Shown here: one piece after another, positions 665 through 16,779 of the stretch
Numbering within the stretch: the stretch's first letter is position 1
Layout: every line of letters starts with the position of its first letter
The notes under the pieces: generated by a model
Told to the model about the DNA's origin: nothing
The model's input: the letters and a program-made list of their open reading frames with translations, nothing else
Database searches by the model: none
Virus record (IMG/VR): IMGVR_UViG_3300010885_007567
Coordinates: 1-31,692 of that record
DNA from: a virus
Reading direction: 5' to 3' (one strand)
Length of the DNA stretch: 31,692 bases
Program-made: the position numbers and the translations under genes

Positions 665-2785
665 ATGAAGATAAATCTATTTAAAGCAGGAAACCAATCA
701 TCAAAACCTATTCAAGAAATAGAGTTTGAAAACTATTTATCAAATGTAAAGAATGGATTATGGCAAGATGATGTATTGGCATACAGAACAGGCAATTTGC
801 AAAAGGAAAAATTACCATGTATTACAACAAGTGGCATATTTTCAGAAAGGAAAGAAGATAAGATAATAGAACATTCTGGATTTATTTGCATTGATTTGGA
901 TGCAAAAGACCAGATAGTAAAGTTTGATATTGATAAAATTAAACAAGATAATTATGTGTATGCAGTACACCAATCTGTAAGCGGATTTGGCTATGCAGTT
1001 TTCTTTAAAATTAATCCTGAAAAACATAAAGAAAGTTATTTTGGCTTAGAAAAGTATTTTTTAGATAATTATAAATTGATAGTTGATCCAGCACCAAAAA
1101 ATGTTTGTTCACTTAGATTTGTTTCTTATGATCCTGACCTTTACCAAAACGAAAAGGCAAAGATATTTAAGCAATATCCAAAAAAAGAAAGCAAAAAAGA
1201 TACATTTACTTATTACCCAACTACACAAAATGACTTTGACGAAATAGTTAGAGAGGTAACTAATAGAGGTTTAAATTTGTGTGATGATTACGAAAATTGG
1301 GTAAACTTTTCATTTGCATTAGTATCTGAATTTGGTGCAAATGGTAGGAATTACTATCATGCTTTTTCCTGTGCTAGTCAAAAATATACATCGGAGTCCA
1401 CAGACAAGATGTATGATATAGCTTTAAAAAGAAACAAAAGCGGAATATCCATTAAAACAATATATTACCATTGTAAAAATGCTGGTGTAAATATTGTTTC
1501 GGAAAAAACAAAGCAAATTGCAACTATAACAAAATTATCAACATCTAAAGAAGAAGCAAAAATAAAGCTAAAAGAATTAGGAATAGATGATGGTGGATTG
1601 GTAGATAAGATAAAAAGTGAAGAAAAGGAAAAAACTATACTTGATGAAGTTATTGATTTAATTAAACTTACAAACATTAAATTTAATGAGATAACGAGAA
1701 ACTATGAGTTTAATGGTGAGCAAATGACTGATAGAGTTTTGGCTAAATTTTACGCTAAGGCATGGAAATTAATTGATGAAGATTTAAGCAAGGATAAAAT
1801 ATTTACTTTAATTGAAAATCCTGAAAATACAATCACATACAATCCAATTAAAAACTTTTTTGTGAAAAATGCACATTTAACACCTAAAGGCAATTTTGAA
1901 TTGCTTTGCTCATGCTTTGAAGTAGAACACAGGATGATACACGAAGGTAAATCTGTACTGGTGTTAGATTACTTGGAAATATTTTTAAAAAAGTGGCTAT
2001 TATCTATTATTGGTTCTGCACATGGCACGTATTCTTTAATGATTTTGGTATTAAATGGAAGGCAAGGGATAAGCAAAACAGAGTTTTTTAGGGGTTTATT
2101 GCCAGATGAATTGCGCGAATATTATGCAGAGTCAAACCTAGATGAAGGGAAAGACAGTGAAATTTTAATGACTAAAAAATTATTAATTGTGGATGATGAA
2201 TTTGGAGGTAAAAGTAAAAAGGATGCAACAAAATTAAAAAGATTATCAAGCCAACAAACATTTTCAATAAGAAGACCATACGGAAAGGTAAGCGAAGATT
2301 TAAACAGATTGGCAGTATTAGGTGGAACATCAAATGAAAGTGAGGTAATTAATGATCACACAGGTAATAGACGTATTATTCCTGTAAATGTTGTAAATTT
2401 TGATTTGGTAAAATATAGGTCCATTGACAAAACAGAATTATTTATGGAGCTTTATCATGAATGGCAAATTGACCGTACATCTTGGTTTTTAACATCAAAT
2501 GAAATTGAAAACTTGAATCTATCAACTATCAATAATCAAGAGGTAATGACTGAAGAAGAAATAATTAATAAAATATTTGTCTATGATAAATTCCACGAAA
2601 TGACAAACACAGAAATAAGATTGGCAATAGAAAATAAATTCCCATCTGTAAGAACCAGCTCAAAAAGAATTGGGATGGCATTGAAAAAATGTGGATTTAA
2701 TCAAGAGGTAAAATATGCGGATGGGATCACAAAAAGAATTTATAATTTAAGAGTAAAAACAGACGATATTAAGCCAATTTTTTAA
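665..2785 (+). CDS. Primase-helicase, BT4734-like/VirE family
   Basis: A 706-aa replication protein. The N-terminal part (about residues 15-160) looks like the BT4734-like primase fold, with acidic pair Asp77/Asp79 in ICIDLDAKD and a conserved SGFGYAVFF segment. A PriCT-2-like middle region (about 190-285) contains YENWVNFSFAL. The C-terminal half is a VirE-type P-loop ATPase with Walker A GRQGISKT (465-472) and Walker B LLIVDDEF (Asp510, Asp511, Glu512), followed by GGTSNE and NRRIIPV motifs. Such proteins prime and unwind DNA at phage or plasmid origins. I chose ATG 665. An in-frame TTG at 644 would start inside the terminator stem and is unlikely. The iteron-bearing intergenic region lies immediately downstream. 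Confidence 0.9.
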   Translation: MKINLFKAGNQSSKPIQEIEFENYLSNVKNGLWQDDVLAYRTGNLQKEKLPCITTSGIFSERKEDKIIEHSGFICIDLDAKDQIVKFDIDKIKQDNYVYAVHQSVSGFGYAVFFKINPEKHKESYFGLEKYFLDNYKLIVDPAPKNVCSLRFVSYDPDLYQNEKAKIFKQYPKKESKKDTFTYYPTTQNDFDEIVREVTNRGLNLCDDYENWVNFSFALVSEFGANGRNYYHAFSCASQKYTSESTDKMYDIALKRNKSGISIKTIYYHCKNAGVNIVSEKTKQIATITKLSTSKEEAKIKLKELGIDDGGLVDKIKSEEKEKTILDEVIDLIKLTNIKFNEITRNYEFNGEQMTDRVLAKFYAKAWKLIDEDLSKDKIFTLIENPENTITYNPIKNFFVKNAHLTPKGNFELLCSCFEVEHRMIHEGKSVLVLDYLEIFLKKWLLSIIGSAHGTYSLMILVLNGRQGISKTEFFRGLLPDELREYYAESNLDEGKDSEILMTKKLLIVDDEFGGKSKKDATKLKRLSSQQTFSIRRPYGKVSEDLNRLAVLGGTSNESEVINDHTGNRRIIPVNVVNFDLVKYRSIDKTELFMELYHEWQIDRTSWFLTSNEIENLNLSTINNQEVMTEEEIINKIFVYDKFHEMTNTEIRLAIENKFPSVRTSSKRIGMALKKCGFNQEVKYADGITKRIYNLRVKTDDIKPIF

Positions 2786-2810
2786 ATAATTGATAATCAA
2801 TGAAATACAT

Positions 2811-2849
2811 ATTACAAACATTACACATCATTACAGATTATTACAGATT
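2811..2849 (+). repeat. Iteron cluster 1 (about 10-bp period)
   Basis: Four tandem units begin ATTACA at 2811, 2820, 2830 and 2840. The last two are exact ATTACAGATT. The second exact unit also forms a perfect 9-bp hairpin with AATCTGTAA at 2856-2864 across a loop of six A. Confidence 0.75.
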
Positions 2850-2895
2850 AAAAAAAATCTGTAAGACGCACTACCATTGACTTACAGCTATATTA

Positions 2896-3017
2896 TTACA
2901 GATATTACACATTATACATATATTATAACTAGTATAGAAAAAAATAAAAAAAAAATAAAAAAAAAATATCTACGTAGGGAAAGTTTAAATTATTGCAAAA
3001 ATGTGTAATATCTGTAA
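2896..3017. repeat. 16-bp perfect inverted repeat flanking A-tracts
   Basis: TTACAGATATTACACA (2896-2911) is the exact reverse complement of TGTGTAATATCTGTAA (3002-3017). The arms are 90 bp apart and enclose the poly-A stretch and the CTACGTAG palindrome. Each arm contains one TTACAGAT iteron, so the whole core is arranged symmetrically. Confidence 0.75.
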
Positions 3018-3057
3018 GAAATAGCAAAAAAATCAACGAAACGCAATACCAGACTAC

Positions 3058-3086
3058 ATTACAGATCATTACAGATTATTACAGAT
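3058..3086 (+). repeat. Iteron cluster 2 (three ATTACAGAT, 10-bp period)
   Basis: ATTACAGAT occurs at 3058-3066, 3068-3076 and 3078-3086, each separated by one base, exactly one helical turn apart. The cluster ends 14 bp before the ATG of the SF2 helicase, so a bound protein could also repress that gene. Confidence 0.8.
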
Positions 3087-3100
3087 AAAAATTATAAAAA

Positions 3101-4603
3101 ATGCTTAGAAATTACCAAATTGAAATAAAAAACAAGGTTCAAAACATTGAATTTAGAAAAAATATATTGCAGATGCCAACTGGTTCTGGTAAAACTTTTA
3201 CTTTTATTGAGATAGCAAAAGATCATTTCACAGAAACTACTGAACGAATTTTAATATTAGTACACAGAATTGAATTATTGGAACAAGCCAGAAAATCATT
3301 AGGCGAAAAATGTTTTATTATTAATGCAGGAATAAAAAATGTTCCACATAATTACGATTATTATATTGGGATGGTAGAAACTACTTATAAACGTATTCAA
3401 ATGTTGCCTAAATTTGGATTAATAATAATAGATGAATGCCACTTTGGTTCTTTTAAAAAATTGCCTTATTTTGGTCCAGAATACAATGAAAAGATATTAG
3501 GAGTAACTGCAACACCAATTGCAGAAACACCATTGGCTAATTATTACGACAATTTGATTTTAGGTCCAACAGTTGAAGAATTGATAAATGAAAAACATTT
3601 GTTGAATTGTGATGTTTACGGCTTTGCATCGGATTTGGTAAGTAAAGAAAAATGGAAGATAAAGAAAGGTGAATTTGACGAAAAGCAAATGGAAGATTTT
3701 TACTCATCTGAAAAAATGGTAAAGAATGTTGTGAATGCTTATTGGGAAAAGTCAGCAGGTAAAAAAACATTAATATTCAATGTAAATTTGAAACATAATG
3801 AATGTGTGCAACGAGCATTTGCACTTGAAGGATTAGAAGTTAGGACCATATCAAGCGAAACCGATAAAAACCAAAGAAAAGAAAATATAAATTGGTTTAG
3901 AACAAATAAACATGCAATACTTTGCAATGTTGGAGTATTGACAACTGGGTTTGATGAGCCAAGTATAGAAACAATAATTTTAAATAGAGCAACCAAAAGC
4001 CTATCGTTATATTTACAGATGGTGGGTAGAGGTTCAAGATTATCTGAAAATAAAGAAAAGTTTTTGGTATTAGATTTAGGGAAAAATACCACTAGGCATG
4101 GAGCATACACAGATTATTTTGATTGGCAGGCATATTTTCAGCATGGCGCAAAACTAAATGATGGTAAAAAAGGTTCTGGAACTGCACCTGTTAAAGAATG
4201 TCCTGAATGCCATTATTTGCAACATACTAGAAAATTAGTTTGCGCAAGTTGTGGTTTTTCTTTTGAAGATGAGCAGAAAAAACAAGAGCAGGAAGAAAAA
4301 AAACAAAAGTTGGTATTATTGATAAGTACAAAACCTATTGAATTACCAATTGATAGGTTGTTAAATATGGCTAAAGATAGAGGGTGGAAGCCATTTGCTG
4401 TATTGCATAAGATTGCAGAACATTTAGTGAATTACTATGTTAAACATAATCAAATAGATGGATTAAAGGACCTTATTTATTTAGAAATGGTAAAAGAAAC
4501 AGAAAAATGGTGTAAAGAATATAACAAGCAATTTAATAAGTGGATGAAAAATATATCTATTGAAATTTTAGAAGGTAAATTAAAATTTATTAGTAATGAA
4601 TAG
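3101..4603 (+). CDS. SF2 DEAD/DEAH-box helicase with C-terminal zinc finger
   Basis: A 500-aa superfamily 2 helicase. Visible motifs are RNYQ near the N-terminus, Walker A MPTGSGKT (25-32), motif Ia LVHRIELLEQA (about 53-63), motif II DECH (111-114), motif III VTATP, and motif VI QMVGRGSR (306-313). A four-cysteine zinc ribbon (Cys367, Cys370, Cys381, Cys384) follows the helicase core, then a helical tail. This arrangement is common in phage ATP-dependent DNA helicases that act in replication, fork reversal or recombination. Its last 8 nt overlap the first nuclease gene, so the two are probably translationally coupled. The iteron cluster directly precedes its start. The helicase assignment is firm; the exact pathway is inferred. 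Confidence 0.92.
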   Translation: MLRNYQIEIKNKVQNIEFRKNILQMPTGSGKTFTFIEIAKDHFTETTERILILVHRIELLEQARKSLGEKCFIINAGIKNVPHNYDYYIGMVETTYKRIQMLPKFGLIIIDECHFGSFKKLPYFGPEYNEKILGVTATPIAETPLANYYDNLILGPTVEELINEKHLLNCDVYGFASDLVSKEKWKIKKGEFDEKQMEDFYSSEKMVKNVVNAYWEKSAGKKTLIFNVNLKHNECVQRAFALEGLEVRTISSETDKNQRKENINWFRTNKHAILCNVGVLTTGFDEPSIETIILNRATKSLSLYLQMVGRGSRLSENKEKFLVLDLGKNTTRHGAYTDYFDWQAYFQHGAKLNDGKKGSGTAPVKECPECHYLQHTRKLVCASCGFSFEDEQKKQEQEEKKQKLVLLISTKPIELPIDRLLNMAKDRGWKPFAVLHKIAEHLVNYYVKHNQIDGLKDLIYLEMVKETEKWCKEYNKQFNKWMKNISIEILEGKLKFISNE

Positions 4604-4934: not shown

Positions 4935-5160
4935 AGTAATCAAGCTAATGGAGTCAAAAGGTTACTATGTGCTGAAGCTATCCAAGACTAATAAGCAGGG
5001 CATTCCTGATTTGCTTTGCCTAAAAAAAGATGAAGTACCTTTCTTTATTGAGGTTAAAACCGATAAGGGTGTAGTAAGTGCATTGCAACTTTATAGGCAA
5101 AAAGAATTAAAGGAATTGGGGTTTAAAAGTATAATTATAAACAATACTAATAACCTATAA
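4927..5160 (+). CDS. Second small PD-(D/E)XK (VRR-NUC-like) nuclease
   Basis: A 77-aa protein with the same core signature as the preceding gene: GIPDLLCLKK, then PFFIEVKTDKG (Asp, Glu, Lys catalytic triad) and LQLYRQKELKELGF. It lacks the N-terminal extension of its neighbour. The two genes overlap by 8 nt. This looks like a diverged duplicate or a partner subunit; short stand-alone VRR-NUC domains are known in phages. Activity is predicted from motifs only. Confidence 0.8.
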   Translation: MDKVIKLMESKGYYVLKLSKTNKQGIPDLLCLKKDEVPFFIEVKTDKGVVSALQLYRQKELKELGFKSIIINNTNNL

Positions 5161-5194
5161 AAAATAACTATATTTATATATGAATATATATTTA

Positions 5195-5202
5195 TAATAT
5201 TG
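5195..5202 (+). promoter_or_regulatory. Weak Bacteroidota-like -7 box (TAATATTG)
   Basis: TAATATTG differs by one base from TAnnTTTG and lies 5 nt before the ATG of the small lipoprotein. The spacing resembles that at 8459-8471 and 10040-10052. The surroundings are extremely AT-rich, so chance occurrence is possible. Confidence 0.35.
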
Positions 5203-5207
5203 CAAAT

Positions 5208-5303
5208 ATGGAAACATTAATCAAACACAAAGATGCTGTAATAATAGTATGCGCATTGATACTATTAGCAGCTTGCAGTAAAACCTATCAAATATATTTT
5301 TAA
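5208..5303 (+). CDS. 31-aa predicted lipoprotein
   Basis: The ATG at 5208 opens a 31-codon frame ending at 5303. The product has a basic N-terminus (METLIKHKD), a hydrophobic stretch (AVIIVCALILLAA) and the lipobox LAAC with the lipidated cysteine at residue 23, leaving only a nine-residue mature peptide (CSKTYQIYF). It should be exported and anchored to a membrane by signal peptidase II processing. It sits 2 nt before the next gene and behind a weak promoter box. Function is unknown; phage lipoproteins this small may act in superinfection exclusion or lysis, but nothing here shows which. Confidence 0.55.
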   Translation: METLIKHKDAVIIVCALILLAACSKTYQIYF

Positions 5304-5305
5304 TT

Positions 5306-5500
5306 ATGCAAATAACATTTACAACCAATTGCCAAGATGAGGCAAAAATACTTTTAAATGCAGTTGATAAATCAATAGCAGTATCTGAACTAAAACAAAA
5401 ATTAAGATATGGTTTAAAAGAAATTGACTTCGGAGAAAACCATAACTACATTGAGCAGTTATATCAATTGATTTGCGAGATAGATGCAATAGGGGAATAA
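5306..5500 (+). CDS. Hypothetical phage protein (64 aa)
   Basis: A 64-aa acidic helical protein starting MQITFTTNCQDEAKILLNAV. The frame is intact, starts 2 nt after the lipoprotein stop and ends just before the tRNA-like gene. I recognise the general pattern of small single-domain proteins common in Bacteroidota phages but cannot name a function. It has no membrane segment or signal peptide. Confidence 0.65.
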   Translation: MQITFTTNCQDEAKILLNAVDKSIAVSELKQKLRYGLKEIDFGENHNYIEQLYQLICEIDAIGE

Positions 5501-5507
5501 AAAACAT

Positions 5508-5592
5508 AGTCAGGTGGCGGAATGGTAGACGCGTGCTTCCCATAAGAACAGCACACCCATAGAGGTTACAGGTTCGAGTCCTGTCCTGACTA
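5508..5592 (+). tRNA. tRNA-like gene, class II body, aberrant anticodon arm
   Basis: A perfect 7-bp acceptor stem forms between AGTCAGG (5508-5514) and CCTGACT (5585-5591). The D-arm GCGGAATGGTAGACGC follows the tRNA-Leu pattern. The T-arm is perfect (ACAGG, loop TTCGAGT, CCTGT). A long variable region can form ACC/GGT, as in class II tRNAs. The anticodon arm is abnormal. With canonical numbering the loop is CCCATAA (anticodon CAT, C instead of the invariant T33) on a stem with one mismatch. Alternatively GTGCT/AGCAC pair perfectly around a 12-nt loop. CCA is not encoded. It may be a decayed tRNA-Leu, an unusual functional tRNA, or a tRNA mimic. Confidence 0.65.
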
Positions 5593-7216: not shown

Positions 7217-7426
7217 ATGTATCAATTTGTAAAGATAACCATTGATGACCGTATCTATTTTTTTAGCAAGCCACATCATCTATACTACGAAGGGAAACTT
7301 TATAAAGCATTTATTCATGGTAGCCAATTAGCTTGGAAAGTAAAAAATAAAATAATCACTTATAATAAACTTAAAAATTATGATAACAATAGAAAAAATA
7401 ACAGAGATAGTTGCAAAGACAGCTAA
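7217..7426 (+). CDS. Hypothetical protein (69 aa), overlaps next gene
   Basis: The product starts MYQFVKITIDDRIYFFSKPH, is rich in Tyr, Phe and Lys, and looks beta-stranded in its first 45 residues. The last 15 residues (NNRKNNRDSCKDS) lie in the 47-nt overlap with the DnaA-like gene and are low complexity. The overlap is long for this otherwise tightly packed genome, so the 3' end may be fortuitous. No family recognised. Confidence 0.5.
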   Translation: MYQFVKITIDDRIYFFSKPHHLYYEGKLYKAFIHGSQLAWKVKNKIITYNKLKNYDNNRKNNRDSCKDS

Positions 7427-7742
7427 TGCACCAATTGACAAAATATTAGGCAAAAGTAGGAAGCGTGAATTTGTGCAGCCGAGATTTGTGGCAATGAAGC
7501 TGGCAAAAGAGTACACTAAAGATAGCCTAGTTAAGATTGGTAATTATTTCGGTGGTAGAGATCACACCACTACCATCCATGCTATCCAAACTATCAATGA
7601 TTATATTGACATTAAAGCCAATCAACCTATGGAAAGCGCATTGTATTTTAGTGCAAAAGAGAACTTGCACAAATATTTATTAGACAATAATGGAATTTCA
7701 CAAAGTATTTTATTAACACCACATTCAGTACCTGTATGCTAA
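7380..7742 (+). CDS. Stand-alone DnaA domain IV protein
   Basis: A 120-aa protein whose central part matches the DNA-binding C-terminal domain of DnaA: KSRKREFVQPRFVAMKLAKE, then SLVKIGNYFGGRDHTTTIHA, including the DnaA signature GGRDHTT with the following His-Ala. The AAA+ ATPase domain of DnaA is absent. The protein could bind DnaA-box-like sites, bring replication to the phage origin, or compete with host DnaA. The C-terminal 40 residues are unassigned. The start ATG lies inside the preceding frame. The domain call is strong; the role is inferred. Confidence 0.85.
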   Translation: MITIEKITEIVAKTANAPIDKILGKSRKREFVQPRFVAMKLAKEYTKDSLVKIGNYFGGRDHTTTIHAIQTINDYIDIKANQPMESALYFSAKENLHKYLLDNNGISQSILLTPHSVPVC

Positions 7743-16126: not shown

Positions 16127-16779
16127 TGTTAGATATAAACTTTAACCAATTAGGCAAAGATAATTTGCCAGTAGCTGAAAGGTCAATAGAAAATAAAAGT
16201 TTATTAAAATCTTTATTATCAAGATTGCAAGCTACCTATAATATATTCATTGATTACATGAATGGTAGTAGTGCAAGTACATACAGCGCAGGTACATACT
16301 CTATTTATGCACAAGTAAAATATAAAGGTGCTATTTATGAGAGTTTAACCGATAGTAATACATCTTTACCTACCGATACAACCAAGTGGCGTAAGATAAT
16401 AGATAGTAGTATTGGCACAAATGAAAGCCAATATTACAACGGTGGTAAATTACAATTGGAATATGCTTTAAATAGACATTTTGGATTAACGTGGGTAAAC
16501 CCACCAAGTTCACCACCAATATTTATTAATAATAATGTAAAGACTATACAACAATTTTTTGTAGGTGAATTAGAAAATACATCAAGTACATTAAATACTA
16601 TAACTAGTTCTGAATTTGTGCCTTTGCAAGATATATCAATAACTACATTTTATGCTTTAACTATAAATGTGCCAACTGCATTTTATGCAAGTTTGGGAGT
16701 AGATGCAGAAATGCAAATTAGAAACATAGCAAATAAATACATAATAACAGGAATTTTTTACAATATAAATCAATATTAA
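16126..16779 (+). CDS. Baseplate/tail protein with CBM5/12-like module
   Basis: A 217-aa protein whose start overlaps the stop of the J-like gene (TAATG). Position suggests a gpI-like component that joins wedge and fibre. Residues about 53-92 (YSIYAQVKYKGAIYESLTDS, then PTDTTKWRKI) resemble a small carbohydrate-binding (CBM5/12-like) module, similar in pattern to those inserted in the connector protein. The C-terminal half is beta-rich with no recognised domain. The role is inferred from order and the module. Confidence 0.55.
   Translation: MLDINFNQLGKDNLPVAERSIENKSLLKSLLSRLQATYNIFIDYMNGSSASTYSAGTYSIYAQVKYKGAIYESLTDSNTSLPTDTTKWRKIIDSSIGTNESQYYNGGKLQLEYALNRHFGLTWVNPPSSPPIFINNNVKTIQQFFVGELENTSSTLNTITSSEFVPLQDISITTFYALTINVPTAFYASLGVDAEMQIRNIANKYIITGIFYNINQY

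Follow-up and report, generated by a model that had tools for sequence, protein, structure and literature searches.

The closest described counterparts of the locus analyzed here are the origins of PICIs, SCCmec, and the satellite P4. PICI origins consist of an AT-rich region flanked by two sets of iterons, and that of the Escherichia coli island EcCICFT073 has been tested experimentally (PMC6092414). In SaPIbov1, SaPI5, and EcCICFT073, which use Rep or Pri-Rep, the iterons directly adjoin the 3′ end of the pri-rep gene. The SaPI Rep provides a precedent for a C-terminal domain, iterons directly 3′ of the gene, and apparently two hexamers (PMC7581432). In SCCmec, the D5-like helicase Cch2 binds, through its C-terminal domain, short repeats located immediately after its own gene, although these are three 5-nt AAGTG iterons and the primase is encoded separately (PMC7581432). 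P4 has two cis sites, ori1 and crr, approximately 4.7 kb apart, and its crr units begin immediately past the 3′ end of the alpha gene.

The stretch of DNA considered here (hereafter, the window) is a virus record of 31,692 nucleotides that, by gene content, represents a full contractile-tailed phage. It encodes a terminase, a portal, a head protease, a virion structural protein that is probably the capsid, a tail sheath, a tape measure, and a baseplate hub. An intergenic module (2786–3100) lies directly 3′ of a primase-helicase gene (665–2785, plus strand), as do the iterons of the PICI and SaPI origins. Judged from sequence comparison, this module is very probably the replication origin of the phage; it would be read by the primase-helicase encoded directly upstream, with probably one hexamer on each half to melt the core and give rise to two forks. 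Such an origin would be of the P4/PICI kind, a kind that is already known. However, P4 is a satellite, whereas the genes of the window for terminase, portal, head, sheath, tape measure, and baseplate are those of a full tailed phage rather than a PICI.

Layout of the intergenic module

The word TTACAGAT occurred exactly eight times in 2786–3100 (plus strand at 2831, 2841, 2896, 3059, 3069, and 3079; minus strand at 2857 and 3010), as an earlier, sequence-only reading of this DNA had counted. That reading had also called the repeats far beyond chance, and this was borne out: shuffles of the region that preserved dinucleotides gave a mean of 0.025 copies and a maximum of 2, and in 2,000 shuffles no 8-mer with at least two G/C exceeded three copies. 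In the whole window, 16 copies were observed versus 1.76 expected. Copies with one mismatch were found at 2821 (TTACACAT), 2882 (TTACAGCT), 2905 (TTACACAT), and 3001 (minus strand), three of which (2821+, 2905+, and 3001−) filled out a regular layout, giving the full order 2821+, 2831+, 2841+, 2857−, 2896+, 2905+, an 88-bp core, 3001−, 3010−, 3059+, 3069+, and 3079+.

The left half therefore consisted of three direct iterons, one inverted iteron, and two direct iterons, with spacings of 10, 10, 16, 39, and 9 bp. These correspond to an outer array (2821–2848, plus strand), an inverted single iteron (2857–2864, minus strand), and an inner pair facing the core (2896–2912, plus strand). The right half was built as 2+3 rather than 2+1+3, without the inverted single: an inner pair (3001–3017, minus strand), inverted relative to the left pair, was followed by an outer array of three direct iterons (3059–3086, plus strand). 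The helical phasing proposed earlier held for the two outer arrays, in which the 10-bp spacing was exact (2821/2831/2841 and 3059/3069/3079), but not for the inner pairs (2896/2905 and 3001/3010), which were spaced by 9 bp. The single inverted iteron formed the previously noted 9-bp hairpin with the end of the left array (2841–2849 with 2856–2864, loop AAAAAA). The perfect inverted repeat reported as 16 bp was present and proved to be 18 bp long (2896–2913 with 3000–3017), and the palindrome CTACGTAG was located at 2970–2977, inside the module.

The core (2913–3000) is an A/T-rich stretch of 88 bp with 15% GC and A-tracts, and is a candidate unwinding element. No 300-bp stretch of the whole window was less stable than the region of the module; for stretches of 100 and 200 bp it was second in instability to one at 5121. 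A tRNA gene (5508–5592; Rfam RF00005, 42.9 bits) lies near this other unstable stretch (approximately 5121–5320), and was the only match at the gathering threshold in the Rfam search of the window and its relatives. As the sequence-only reading had stated, the module is gene-free, with no ORF of at least 60 amino acids and a longest stop-free run of 48 codons, and it lies between two replication genes, the primase-helicase and a DEAD/ResIII helicase (3101–4603, plus strand). Because GC skew stayed positive over almost the entire window, the cumulative-skew check suggested earlier gave no origin signal. An IHF-like match at 2783 (minus strand) touches the left edge of the module, one of seven such matches in the whole window. 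The spacers between the outer and inner repeats (2865–2895 and 3018–3058) share ACGCA.TACCA-like words, a direct repeat family designated D2.

The primase-helicase and its relatives

Counted from the ATG at 665, the primase-helicase has 706 amino acids; the TTG at 644, given as the start in the ORF list, falls in the leader described below. Pfam assigned BT4734-like_N, PriCT_2, and VapE-like domains, and the PHROG assignment was DNA primase (3e-140). The AlphaFold2 model (mean pLDDT 77, pTM 0.46) most closely matched the solved structure of SaPI PriRep1 (7pds), with AsfvPrimPol, NrS-1, and the SaPI5 primase-helicase (7ola) ranking lower; thus, two SaPI proteins were among the best matches of the predicted structure. 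At the C-terminus, approximately residues 630–698 (2552–2758, plus strand) were predicted to form three helices and a beta hairpin, a winged helix that is the candidate reader of the iterons. The last 95 residues modelled alone also gave a winged helix (pLDDT 82), whose top matches were RFX DNA-binding domains and the origin-binding domain of phage P4 (1ka8; Z 7.4, 2.3 Å over 75 residues), itself a winged helix. Because Z values of approximately 7–8 are also seen for a common fold, this match supports a reading function rather than proving it. The protein appears to combine an SF3/D5-type (VapE-like) helicase domain with a predicted C-terminal winged helix, as expected of an initiator at a P4/PICI-type origin. 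A 98-amino-acid protein encoded at 32–328 of the window ends in EDLPF, as an SSB would; SSB-like tips (NNNEVPF, EEPMPF, SEELPF, and DIDRPF) also end primase-helicases among loci L071, L078, L085, L086, L088, and L091.

The primase gene of the window is preceded by a leader (563–664), also found at L006, L011, L012, L022, L040, L053, L054, L081, L149, and other loci. It extends for approximately 100–110 nt from a TATATTTG-type box to, usually, the primase ATG and can form an H-type pseudoknot, with stem 1 at approximately +10/+70, a crossing stem 2 at approximately +40/+90, and a U-rich end. Among 33 distinct leaders, 31 outscored all 40 of their shuffles, and the stem sequences differed wholly between clades, which indicates covariation. 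Rfam returned only chance matches for the leader, which looks like an undescribed structured RNA and is perhaps an attenuator. In L012, a gene resembling an HNH endonuclease by eye (approximately 425–959) separates the pseudoknot leader from the primase gene, and the two are 633 nt apart.

For comparison, we collected 58 viral loci with close primase relatives, to which an alignment search added viral contigs and bacterial genome contigs; 84 near-full-length primase proteins clustered at 85% identity yielded 38 representatives. Cultured relatives included Nonlabens phages P12024S/L, Cellulophaga phage phi46:1, and Flavobacterium phages mumin9-1 and snusmum6-1. When a repeat cluster was defined as a 7-mer repeated at p ≤ 0.01 within 450 bp of the primase gene, such a cluster followed the gene in 24 of 38 representatives and preceded it in four of 37. 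The four upstream loci (L011, L051, L081, and L149) all lacked the downstream cluster. From the opposite direction, when tandem ATTACAGATNATTACAGAT was the only feature sought in viral contigs, 14 stretches were returned, 12 of which were beside a primase-helicase of the same family. No repeat cluster was found near the primase at L077, L087, and L088, and the Nonlabens phages P12024S/L (L076/L079) had a weak cluster there, below the test threshold.

The sequence-only reading had named conservation of the repeats in related phages as a check. Conservation held for the cluster beside the primase and for its geometry; the word itself changes between clades. TTACAGAT or TTACACAT was the repeat word in the window and in the L011, L018, L054, L062, and L183 clades, and AGGTAACC in the mumin and snusmum phages, whereas other clades used GACTACA, TACTACA, GGTTGTA, GGTTGCA, GGTTGACA, TGCGACA, AGTGACC, GTGTAAC, GTGGTAA, or CCTTACC. 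No DNA similarity was found between the window module and the cultured phages. Across clades, the geometry is kept while the repeat word changes. The innermost repeats flanking the central gap were opposed in 28 of the 32 modules with a measurable gap, and in the 27 modules in which they faced it, the median gap length was 94 bp (range, 83–137). Inner pairs were spaced by 6–12 bp, mostly 7–9 bp, indicating that exact 10-bp phasing is a local feature; outer arrays were often spaced by 9–11 bp. Covariation of the iteron word with the winged helix was not clear-cut and speaks against the origin reading: the partial rank correlation was 0.20 with the winged helix and 0.36 with PriCT, and distant pairs gave no signal.

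The core is an A-tract in the clade of the window; the L014/L018 clades have a GT/GTGCGTG tract instead. In the L014–L049 clade, this tract (approximately 25–45 bp), which replaces the A-tract core, is of a sequence type that can form Z-DNA. Spacers between the outer and inner repeats of relatives often contain TATTGAT or ATCAAT, and those of L090 carry inverted copies of one word, one in each spacer. In mumin9-1, a nuclease gene with similarity to PF10544 (L078, 5217–5780) lies inside the iteron array, which is continuous there in snusmum6-1 (L080). Loci L030 and L052 lie near opposite ends of one contig (IMGVR_UViG_3300042310_000167, 39,621 bp) and differ from each other in both the primase gene and the origin module; either the assembly is chimeric or the genome has two origins.

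Probable origin function and competing explanations

Repeats far above chance expectation lie beside the gene of a putative initiator and adjoin an A/T-rich element (88 bp, 15% GC). Three comparative results argue for the origin reading: the module follows the primase gene through changes of gene order and replacement of the word, the two-sided layout is kept around the least stable DNA, and the signed repeat layout is the same as in P4 ori1 and the EcCICFT073 origin. The iteron-type origin proposed from the sequence alone is thus supported by gene linkage, layout, and likeness to known systems. In the proposed mechanism, the C-terminal winged helix of the primase-helicase would bind TTACA(G/C)AT iterons, and each half-site (outer array, inverted single, and inner pair; six sites on the left) would gather approximately one D5/VapE-type helicase hexamer, a number that six sites per half would suit. 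Facing each other over the 88-bp A/T core, the two complexes would melt this DNA and then be loaded onto its strands, after which the N-terminal primase domain would prime both strands for bidirectional replication with the host polymerase.

The repeats could instead be operators through which a phage regulator controls transcription of the downstream DEAD helicase operon, since the module lies just upstream of the start codon of that helicase, and short tandem and inverted sites would also suit a repressor. Yet at L011 and L051, where the primase and helicase genes are only 1–7 bp apart, the module lies upstream of the primase and is separated from that gene by the leader and a TATATTTG-type box that resembles a promoter; relatives with no module at this place have a box and a leader of this kind before the primase too. 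The gene that follows the module is, moreover, often not a helicase, being VRR-NUC in L071 and snusmum6-1 and a nuclease gene in mumin9-1. Regulation would also leave unexplained the 3+1+2 layout shared with P4 ori1 and the conserved gap of approximately 94 bp. Because the module changes side and neighbor, and the primase box and leader are alike with or without it, we regard a purely regulatory function as improbable; a double role in replication and autoregulation is possible.

A DnaA-type origin, read by host DnaA or by a phage protein with DnaA domain IV, is more improbable still. A 120-amino-acid protein encoded at 7380–7742 matches Pfam Bac_DnaA_C (1e-24), and another small protein with a DnaA_C-like sequence (by eye) precedes the primase in L062. 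However, the module contains no site within one mismatch of TTATCCACA and no DnaA box (TTATNCACA) with fewer than two mismatches, which makes the DnaA-type binder suggested by the sequence-only reading unlikely; in the whole window, TTATNCACA occurs once, at 16305. GGRDHTT is the contact motif for canonical DnaA boxes, and because the 7380–7742 protein keeps it, this protein should read a word other than the iteron. The motif is kept even though the window has a single TTATNCACA, and DnaA boxes of the host, rather than the phage origin, might be the target of the protein. Packaging, partition, and recombination sites can likewise contain clustered repeats, but such a function is the least probable here, with no result in its favor: more than 7 kb separate the module from the terminase gene, no partition gene was recognized among the proteins searched, and the module tracks the primase gene rather than packaging or recombinase genes.

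The 3+1+2 half-site in P4, EcCICFT073, and the phages

With the module read as a replication origin, its position at the edge of the primase-helicase gene and the 3+1+2 half-site on its left side correspond to P4 and PICI origins. P4 ori1 (> 10 > 11 > 22 < 43 > 10 >) has the same signed layout as the left half of the window (> 10 > 10 > 16 < 39 > 9 >), with repeats taken from the annotation of the P4 record and GGTGAACA taken as forward. The crr units start with a pair spaced by 9 bp, followed after 43 bp by an opposed single. In EcCICFT073, which we located within 1.374–1.390 Mb of CFT073, the half-site with the word GGTAGA also followed the 3+1+2 layout, with spacings of 9, 11, 22, 46, and 9 bp. 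The systems differ in arrangement. The two P4 sites are far apart, whereas both halves of the window origin lie in one 315-bp region around the A/T core; EcCICFT073 has inward-pointing triples and outward-pointing pairs, whereas in the window the pairs face inward across the 88-bp core. The P4 word GGTGAACAG resembles GGTTGACAG of L190 and differs from the repeat word of the window. The hhalign comparison of the primase-helicase with P4 alpha, made against a single template sequence, detected no sequence similarity (probability, 0.2%).

From these layouts we derived a 3+1+2 rule, with spacings of approximately 10, 10, 22, 45, and 9 bp. A complete half-site was found in 10 of 34 modules of the family (null mean, 0.07–0.18; maximum, 2), and a pair with an opposed single at 34–56 bp in 26 of 34 (null mean, 5–7; maximum, 13); these nulls overstate the significance because the words and tolerances were set after the data had been viewed and the 34 modules are mutually related. 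The P4 and EcCICFT073 matches were independent of the words chosen from the window, with the tolerances shared. We give an even chance to a wider proposal, namely that P4 ori1/crr, the PICI origins, and these Bacteroidota phage origins share one six-iteron half-site (3+1+2) that would dock a single winged-helix D5/VapE helicase hexamer. Under this proposal, the compact origin would be two half-sites placed face to face around a melting core, the two distant cis sites of P4 would be a split form, and the iteron words would change along with the initiator, the half-site spacing remaining constant.

New here are the occurrence of a probable origin of the P4/PICI kind throughout a family of full tailed Bacteroidota phages and its compact face-to-face form. 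So are the exchange of repeat words without a change in spacing, the switch of the module from one side of the primase gene to the other, and a 3+1+2 rule that P4, a PICI, and the phages have in common. Our literature search, in which subscription papers were mostly outside the scope and earlier descriptions are therefore possible, returned no paper describing the origins of these phages or of P4. This kind of putative origin is also present in cultured phages, such as the Flavobacterium phages mumin9-1 and snusmum6-1. The 3+1+2 spacing rule predicts one hexamer per half-site, and the comparison offers an explanation for the split ori1 and crr of P4. Candidate origins may thereby be obtained for many uncultured phages from their sequences alone.
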